A stretch of 32,430 nucleotides of DNA from assembly GCA_903931735.1 (NCBI GenBank), contig CAIZDL010000113.1, positions 1 through 32,430 of the forward strand, given 5' to 3'. Positions within the stretch are counted from its first letter, which is position 1; every line of letters begins with the position of its first letter. Shown here piece by piece: positions 19,374 to 21,417 of this stretch. Source of the DNA: an uncultured Rhodospirillales bacterium (GTDB lineage: Bacteria > Pseudomonadota > Alphaproteobacteria > Azospirillales > Azospirillaceae). The position numbers were made by a program, and so were the translations under genes. The notes under the pieces are model-generated. The model ran no database searches. It was given only the letters and a program-made list of their open reading frames with translations, and was not told the DNA's origin.

Positions 19374-19622
19374 TCAGCCCTTCTTGCCTGGGGCGGGCTC
19401 GCTTTTATGATCGACTTTTGGCGCGACACCGGGCGGCTGGGTCTCCACCGGGTCGCCCATCCCCACGAGGCAAATCCCCCCCGCCACCAGCAGCAACAAA
19501 AAGCCGAGGATCTGTTCCAGCGCCGCCATCAGGCTACGCTCATAGCTGGTGGCCAAACTGGCGGAGACCAGAAGCACGATGCCGGCAAGGGTCAACAGCG
19601 TGACCTTGACGCCTTTGCTCAT
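19374..19622 (-). CDS. small two-helix membrane protein, unrecognised
   Basis: An 82-residue protein with two hydrophobic segments, about residues 7-26 (VTLLTLAGIVLLVSASLA) and 36-55 (LEQILGFLLLLVAGGICLVG). A short polar tail with Pro and Lys follows. A G-rich stretch (GGTGGGG) lies 8-15 bases before the ATG. It is the first gene downstream of ssrA on the same strand, but the hairpin at 19660-19689 probably separates them. Function unknown. Confidence 0.6.
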   Translation of the reverse strand: MSKGVKVTLLTLAGIVLLVSASLATSYERSLMAALEQILGFLLLLVAGGICLVGMGDPVETQPPGVAPKVDHKSEPAPGKKG

Positions 19623-19659
19623 CGACCGACCCCACCCACACCGAATTAAAATGATAAGT

Positions 19660-19689
19660 GCCGGCGCTTCTGTTCCAAGGCCCGCCGGC
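19660..19689 (-). terminator. probable 3' hairpin/terminator of ssrA
   Basis: On the minus strand a 7-bp stem, GCCGGCG (19689-19683) with CGCCGGC (19666-19660), is followed by a weakly T-rich stretch (ATCATTTTAATT). It lies 14 nt beyond the tag stop codon. It may be a terminator or part of the mature coding-piece fold. Confidence 0.5.
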
Positions 19690-19980
19690 TAGCCCGTGCC
19701 TAACTACGCCGCGAGGCGCATGTCGGCAGGAGCAACGATGTTATCGTTCGCACCTAGAGTTTTGACCCGATAACGGCGGTATCATGCCGGGCAAAAGTTT
19801 CGTCTTTACTGCATCCCGTCGAGCCTATTTCGCCCCCATAACGCCGGCCGGTTTCCCGGGCGGCGGAACTGGTGGAGGCGCCGGGTACCGCCCCCGGGTC
19901 CGAGAAACCTATTCCACAATCCGTTTATCGCCATAGTCGAGTGTTACCCCGACCCACCGATTATGGCACAGACGGTTCGG
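19660..19980 (-). ncRNA. ssrA: tmRNA, circularly permuted two-piece form
   Basis: Ribosome-rescue RNA on the minus strand in permuted order. The acceptor piece comes first: CTCGGACCCGG leads into a perfect 5-bp T stem (CCGGG/CCCGG, seven-base loop GGCGGTA), then CGCCTCC, the discriminator A and an encoded CCA ending at 19870. A 32-nt spacer (19869-19838) follows. The coding piece starts GGGGGCG at 19837, pairs with CGCCTCC to form the 7-bp acceptor stem with one G-U pair, and continues with the tmRNA-like CTCGACGGGAT. The tag frame runs from GCG at 19751 to TAG at 19704 and encodes ANDNIVAPADMRLAA, which has the alphaproteobacterial AND start and LAA end. The outer ends of the gene are approximate. 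A strong hairpin at 19921-19975 lies in the acceptor-piece leader. Confidence 0.93.
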
Positions 19981-20085
19981 GAATAACACCCCCCTCTTGG
20001 CCCCTCTGCCGAGAACCTACTGAGTAAAGCCCCCCCTTGTGTTAGAATGGCCCCGATGAGGCCCAACAGCGACGGAACACCTCAG

Positions 20086-20976
20086 ATGTTTCGCTTTCCC
20101 AGCGTCCTGGCTTTAATGATTGCGGTCGCTTTCGGCGCGACATTGATGCAAAGCGCGTTCCGGGCACCGGGGGCACACGAGACGAGCGCGCCCAGCGCTG
20201 CCGGACAAACCCAGCCGAACGGGGTCACCTTCGCGGTGATTCCCCAATTTGACCCCCGAAAACTCGGGGCGATTTGGACACCGGTGATAACCGAGCTTGC
20301 CGCGCGATCGGGCGTTCGGCTCTCGCTCGTCATTCCGGCCACCATGTCCGAATTTCAGCACGGGCTTGCCGCCGGACGCTATGATTTCGTCTACGCCAAC
20401 CCCTATCAGCTCTTGCGTGAGGCCGACCGGCAAGGCTACCGGCCCCTGGTGCGCGACGCCGAGCCGTTGCGCGGTATTTTGGTGGTGCGTGCCGACAGCA
20501 GGGTGAACAGCCCGGCCGCCCTCGACGGCAAGGTGTTGGCGGTTCCCTCACAAAATGCGGTGGCGGCCAGCCTGCTGCTGCGCGCCGAGTTGGAGCGTGG
20601 CTTTCAGGTCCGGGTAAAATTGCTCGACGCCAAAACCCACGGCGGCGCCTTTTTGGCCGTGGCCGGGCATGACGCCGACGCCGGCGGCGGTGCCGACAAA
20701 ACCTTCAGAGACCTCGACCCGCTGATCAAGGGGGCGCTGAAAGTCATTCACACCACCGGCGAGATACCGCCCCACGCCATTGCCGCTCACCCGCGCGTCC
20801 CCGCGCACATCGCCGAGGCCATCCGCCAAGCCTTCTTAAAACTCGGCACCGCGCCGGAAGGTCGCGCGATGCTCGCCAAGGTGCAGATGAGACAGCCGGT
20901 GCCGGCATCGATGGACGAATACCGCCCCCTCACCGACTGGCACCTCGAACGCTACTGGATCGATGATACCGACTAG
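20086..20976 (+). CDS. PhnD-like phosphate/phosphonate-type substrate-binding protein
   Basis: A 296-residue secreted protein with an N-terminal hydrophobic segment (SVLALMIAVAFGATLMQSAF) and a type 2 periplasmic-binding fold of the PhnD/PtxB family. VTFAVIPQFDPRKLGAIWTPVI, GRYDFVYANPYQLLRE, VRADSRVNSPAALDGKVLAVPSQNAVAASLL, the central DA..GA and HTTGEIPPHAIAAHPRVP are typical. No ABC-transporter ATPase or permease gene is adjacent, so it may serve a distant transporter or a sensor. The start at 20086 leaves a compact signal; ATGs at 20047 and 20056 are also in frame. It diverges from ssrA. Confidence 0.85.
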   Translation: MFRFPSVLALMIAVAFGATLMQSAFRAPGAHETSAPSAAGQTQPNGVTFAVIPQFDPRKLGAIWTPVITELAARSGVRLSLVIPATMSEFQHGLAAGRYDFVYANPYQLLREADRQGYRPLVRDAEPLRGILVVRADSRVNSPAALDGKVLAVPSQNAVAASLLLRAELERGFQVRVKLLDAKTHGGAFLAVAGHDADAGGGADKTFRDLDPLIKGALKVIHTTGEIPPHAIAAHPRVPAHIAEAIRQAFLKLGTAPEGRAMLAKVQMRQPVPASMDEYRPLTDWHLERYWIDDTD

Positions 20977-20985
20977 CCGCCGGGT

Positions 20986-21417
20986 TCAGCCAAAAACCGC
21001 GTGCCAGGCGCCGCCGACTTTATCGAAGATCCAGACGAAGGTTGAGATGATAACGCCGCCAAAAAGCCCAACCGCGCACCCAACCCCCGAAGTTGCGATC
21101 AGCGCAACCACCGCCGGCAGCGCGCCCGCGTAAAATGTCCAGCCAACCATCGGCGGCAAAGCGGTAACCAAGGCTCCGAGCACGGTGCCGGTGGCGCAGC
21201 CGAAAAAGACCGATTGGGGATCGACCAAGGCCGATGGCCGTTTACCCGTTGGCGTCGGCGTTCCAACCACCGAACTATCGGCGCTGGCGGTGGTTGCCAC
21301 CACCAGAGTCGGGCCGCGCGCATCCCCAGGCCAAGCCAGGGAAACGTTGCCCTGGCTCATGAAAATACCGAAGGCGACCATAAGAAGGCTGATACCGGTG
21401 GGCCGCAACGGCTTCAT
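20986..21417 (-). CDS. small exported or membrane protein with Gly-rich helices
   Basis: A 143-residue protein with a signal peptide (LLMVAFGIFMSQGNVSLAW), a polar Thr/Ser/Pro linker, and two or three Gly/Ala-rich hydrophobic segments (FFGCATGTVLGALVTALP, ALPAVVALIATSGVGCAVGLFGGVIISTFVWIF). The GxxxG-like spacing and two Cys residues recall glycine-zipper membrane proteins. No family is recognised with confidence. It is convergent with the PhnD-like gene, 9 bp away. Confidence 0.6.
   Translation of the reverse strand: MKPLRPTGISLLMVAFGIFMSQGNVSLAWPGDARGPTLVVATTASADSSVVGTPTPTGKRPSALVDPQSVFFGCATGTVLGALVTALPPMVGWTFYAGALPAVVALIATSGVGCAVGLFGGVIISTFVWIFDKVGGAWHAVFG

Follow-up and report, generated by a model that had tools for sequence, protein, structure and literature searches.

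Does the minus strand between about 19,660 and 19,980 of a 32,430-nucleotide stretch of DNA from an uncultured Rhodospirillales bacterium (contig CAIZDL010000113.1, assembly GCA_903931735.1; the whole stretch is referred to below as the window) encode a two-piece tmRNA, and does it depart in any respect from others of its family? The initial annotation, made from the sequence alone, had read a circularly permuted tmRNA at 19660-19980 and proposed a search with the alphaproteobacterial covariance model as a check, and this reading is borne out by RF01849, RF04321 and ARAGORN.

Identity and layout of the locus

The RF01849 (alpha_tmRNA) model matched the window at 19992-19657 on the minus strand, close to the limits first given, over its full length (model positions 1-355 of 355) with a score of 190.2 bits, far above the gathering score of 50 (E = 1.2e-53). 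RF04321 (tmRNA_permuted) gave a full-length match of 139.8 bits at 19932-19704 on the same strand (E = 1.1e-27), and these covariance E-values place the identification beyond chance. RF04321 merges alphaproteobacterial, betaproteobacterial and cyanobacterial permuted tmRNAs (PMC11915505) and its base pairs are limited to the shared tRNA domain, so that the 3′ pseudoknot lies outside its test. ARAGORN called a permuted tmRNA at 19962-19613, with a 3′ end 44 nt past that of Rfam and with the same tag, ANDNIVAPADMRLAA, as had been read by eye. The sequence has the permuted order, in which an acceptor piece with its CCA is followed by a spacer and then by a coding piece, and the encoded CCA, the 32-nt spacer and the GGGGGCG/CGCCTCC stem lie where they had originally been placed. 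The window locus is a real, correctly read and ordinary member of a known tmRNA family. Its elements are as follows.

19657-19992, minus strand: whole permuted ssrA gene including the upstream region (RF01849 limits)
19960-19965, minus strand: CATAAT, a -10-like box and putative promoter element, placed by its position before the 5′ hairpin, approximately where most relatives have CTATAT
19870-19953, minus strand: acceptor RNA with 5′ hairpin, 3′ half of P2, T arm, acceptor 3′ strand and encoded CCA (sequence, Rfam; predicted 5′ end)
19936-19953, minus strand: hairpin at the 5′ end of the acceptor RNA (Rfam alignment and cofold)
19881-19897, minus strand: T arm, CCGGG-GGCGGTA-CCCGG, with a 7-nt loop at 19886-19892 (sequence)
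19874-19880, minus strand: CGCCTCC, 3′ strand of the acceptor stem, giving G3:U70 (pair conservation)
19870-19873, minus strand: ACCA, that is, A73 and the encoded CCA (sequence)
19838-19869, minus strand: spacer of 32 nt, expected to be removed (sequence)
19656-19837, minus strand: coding RNA with acceptor 5′ strand, D-loop analogue, P2 5′ strand, PK1, tag frame and 3′ pseudoknot (predicted 3′ end)
19831-19837, minus strand: GGGGGCG, 5′ strand of the acceptor stem (sequence, pair conservation)
19764-19792, minus strand: candidate PK1 region, CGGC/GCCG and GATA/TATC (permissive search without a control)
19704-19751, minus strand: tag frame ANDNIVAPADMRLAA with GCG resume codon and TAG stop (ARAGORN)
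19658-19695, minus strand: candidate 3′ pseudoknot with stem GCCGGCG/CGCCGGC, GGGCT pairing with loop GGCCT, and the motif GGAACAGAA

This gene shares with RF01849 and with the ssrA of Caulobacter crescentus its gene order, T arm, G3:U70 acceptor stem and P2, as well as a tag of the ANDN...AA kind and a candidate 3′ pseudoknot with an AACAGAA motif. The differences are of detail only. The tag has 15 residues, GGAACAGAA stands where GCAACAGAA is usual, P2a and the pseudoknot stem take the form seen in this genus, and CTATAT is missing upstream. The predicted acceptor RNA (19870-19953) compares with the 83-residue chain B described for Caulobacter (PMC1168896).

The T loop had been singled out as lacking the usual TTC-type sequence. 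The loop is indeed GGCGGTA, but it is not unusual, since this is both the T loop of the Rfam consensus and that of 26 of 38 alphaproteobacterial loci, the others having GGCAGTA (seven), GGCGGAA (two), GGCGGCA (one) or, in two paralogues, a loop of another kind. It was therefore ruled out as a novelty, and departures in the T loop have been published for C. crescentus and the R. americana mitochondrion (PMC1168896). The further expectation that such genes are often missed by standard annotation does not hold for ARAGORN, which detects the tmRNA in 36 of 39 loci, that of the window included, a count that is silent on tmRNAs missed by both tools because the loci were preselected by RF01849. The 39 tmRNA-bearing loci (L001-L031 and L033-L040) include that of the window as L001; counts over 38 loci omit L029, which the T-arm pattern missed, and counts over 36 additionally omit L036 and L037, which are divergent paralogues.

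These two paralogues are permuted tmRNAs in their own right (L037, G010:C1:5116873-5117263, and L036, G019:C29:47851-48266; 83.2 and 83.8 bits), with T arms GGGGG-CTGCAATG-CCCCC and GGGGG-CTGCGATG-CCCCC, respectively, and the tag ANDNHNAQDLRVAA. Genome G010 has L037 besides a normal tmRNA copy at another place, while in G019, a draft genome of the same genus as G010, L036 is the only match. The two-tmRNA genome also has a guanidine-I riboswitch (L042, 17563-17688, 73.6 bits).

Pairing, candidate pseudoknots and the low covariance score

Support for the proposed architecture comes from homology and from the conservation of base pairs rather than from stability, because the folding energy of the tRNA-like part (−43.4 kcal/mol) equals the mean of 300 mononucleotide shuffles (−43.4, sd 3.7); folding energy was discarded as evidence, as the shuffles fold equally well. 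Across 36 loci, the acceptor stem pairs in 251 of 252 cells, compared to 141-180 of 252 when the partner strand is slid by 1-3 columns, and P2d pairs in 180 of 180 (slid, 56-116 of 179 or 180). The corresponding values are 124 of 142 for P2b (slid, 19-80 of 142 or 144) and 143 of 180 for P2a (slid, 31-120 of 180), where the P2 registers were read from the window sequence, which favors them, and P2a fits other lineages less well. Within the genus of the window, a set of four loci consisting of that of the window and L033-L035 (contigs G001:C41, G002:C183, and G004:C9), all 20 cells of P2a are paired, as are 15 of the 16 of P2b. Two-sided changes are present in all four helices among the 36 loci, and the predicted pairing between the acceptor and coding pieces is supported across relatives by this comparison. 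Cofolding gave P2-like helices for the tRNA-like part of the window and for L033; with L034, L035, and the full-length two-piece RNA it gave other pairings and no P2.

Permissive searches, run without a control, found candidates for the 3′ pseudoknot in 36 of 38 loci and for PK1 in 29 of 38; in the window, a structure of either kind can be drawn. The sequence CTTGGAACAGAAG occurs in four of 43 loci, which are the four of the window's genus. A gap in the Rfam alignment had prompted the idea that a shortened coding piece is a trait of this genus, and this was rejected since other lineages likewise have few bases between tag and pseudoknot (for example, L009).

The RF01849 search of relatives matched 38 of 39 genomes, that of the window counted in, and gave no match in G003, a draft genome of the same genus in 310 contigs that is 91% complete. 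At 190.2 bits the window locus is second lowest among the 38 matching genomes, and the 30 best loci score 227-313 bits. Such a low score might point to a decayed copy of a tmRNA gene whose functional counterpart lies elsewhere. No such counterpart came up, however, as RF01849 matches the genome, listed as 100% complete, at this one place only. The same low-scoring form (196-203 bits), with tags and pairs intact, is also present in the three relatives of the same genus, and one C-G pair of the 3′ pseudoknot is replaced by U-A in two of the four genus members, a compensatory change that may represent a single event and that likewise speaks against decay. A decayed copy is accordingly considered very improbable.

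Tag, partner proteins and the proposed route of trans-translation

The tag of the window, ANDNIVAPADMRLAA, has 15 residues and ends in Ala-Ala, and together with those called by ARAGORN in the genus relatives (ANDNIVAPAEVRLAA, ANDNTVVPAELRLAA, and ANDNNVAPAEMRLAA) it fits the pattern ANDNxVxPA(D/E)xRLAA. G3:U70 and A73 are determinants for alanyl-tRNA synthetase, and a G:U at the third acceptor pair and A73 are each present in 38 of 38 loci. The same genome encodes SmpB on another contig (G000:C226, 182.2 bits) and has a single match to SspB (152.3 bits), also on a contig other than that of the tmRNA. Elsewhere in the set, the tag frames of L012, L038, and L039, which come from genomes of 1.4-1.9 Mb, seem long; the tag called by ARAGORN has 25 residues in L012 and 15 in L038, where the frame appears to open further upstream, and L039 received no call.

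The sequence data show the gene and its architecture, the conserved pairs, the tag, G3:U70, and smpB and sspB in the genome. From what is known of the family we infer their transcription, processing, alanylation, tagging, and degradation in the source organism. A precursor would be transcribed leftwards from about 19.95 kb, and the 32-nt spacer would be removed by two cuts, one at the encoded CCA and the other where GGGGGCG begins. The acceptor and coding RNAs would stay joined through the acceptor stem and P2, and the alanylated complex with SmpB would enter stalled ribosomes, where Ala and ANDNIVAPADMRLAA would be appended to the stalled protein, which ClpXP, assisted by SspB, would then degrade. 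In the two-piece family, the precursor is cut at two places, the CCA and the start of the coding piece, and the two RNAs remain paired. The CATAAT box is not among the promoters listed by the consensus scan, and nothing resembling a terminator came up in 19500-20100. A single promoter-like site was listed by the scan, at 19678-19651 on the minus strand (9/12, with 0.3 expected in shuffles), where it overlaps the end of the coding piece and precedes an 82-residue frame at 19622-19374. This frame, by eye a small membrane protein, and that at 20986-21417, both on the minus strand, have no Pfam or NCBIfam match at 0.001.

The cutting step is the one at which a different outcome can be envisaged, in which the permuted transcript would stay uncut, its two parts joined by the 32-nt spacer, and would function in that form. 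The spacer, 4-80 nt long over 38 alphaproteobacterial loci, is as short as 4 nt in relatives, which leaves room for a joined form. Alanylation, however, requires a free 3′ CCA end, which an unprocessed transcript would not offer. In Orientia, the precursor and both the acceptor and coding RNAs were reported on a Northern blot with matching read coverage (PMC7335160), and the two-piece tmRNA of Caulobacter is described as functional in trans-translation (PMC3985003, citing Keiler et al. 2000). These reports likewise argue against an RNA that works uncut, which we regard as highly unlikely. It is nearly certain, by contrast, that the single ssrA gene detected in this genome belongs to the circularly permuted, two-piece kind found in alphaproteobacteria, with the processing and trans-translation role predicted above.

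Upstream box, sspB and gene neighborhood in the genus

Two small lineage features are seen beside the gene. CTATAT or TTATAT was looked for in the 50 nt ahead of the 5′ hairpin and is present in 30 of 38 loci, all of them among the 34 outside the genus of the window; the eight loci without it are the four of the genus and L012, L013, L037, and L040. Downstream, over up to 1.8 kb from the start of the coding piece (less where a locus stopped short), sspB, sought as a match to the SspB of the respective genome, lies on the same strand in 27 of 38 loci, and these 27 are among the 34 outside the genus, versus 0 of the four inside it. The 11 loci where it was not found in this stretch are those four and L003, L014, L025, L031, L036, L037, and L040. 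The sspB match of L006, as an example, spans 256-756 from the start of the coding piece. The neighbors of the window tmRNA are not shared either, as tblastn (E up to 1e-4) with 12 of the window's open frames gave no match in the 19.0, 17.4, and 5.7 kb surrounding the relatives' three tmRNAs, ruling out a genus-conserved neighborhood for the stretches examined.

The lack of a CTATAT box, the lack of an adjoining sspB and the unshared neighbors together suggest that ssrA may have moved within or before the genus of the window. A more specific reading, which we put forward tentatively and consider somewhat doubtful, is that in this genus ssrA has become detached from sspB, its ancestral neighbor, and from the conserved CTATAT promoter, which would have uncoupled the making of the tag from that of the adaptor bringing tagged proteins to ClpXP. 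A limited literature search returned no title on the ssrA-sspB pairing, which may yet be in print.

For the most part, the finding is a correct but ordinary annotation, that of a housekeeping gene from a Rhodospirillales lineage about which little is known. Only the adjacency of ssrA and sspB, seen in most of the loci and in none of the genus, is of some wider use, and it suggests a regulatory link between the tmRNA and the adaptor protein.
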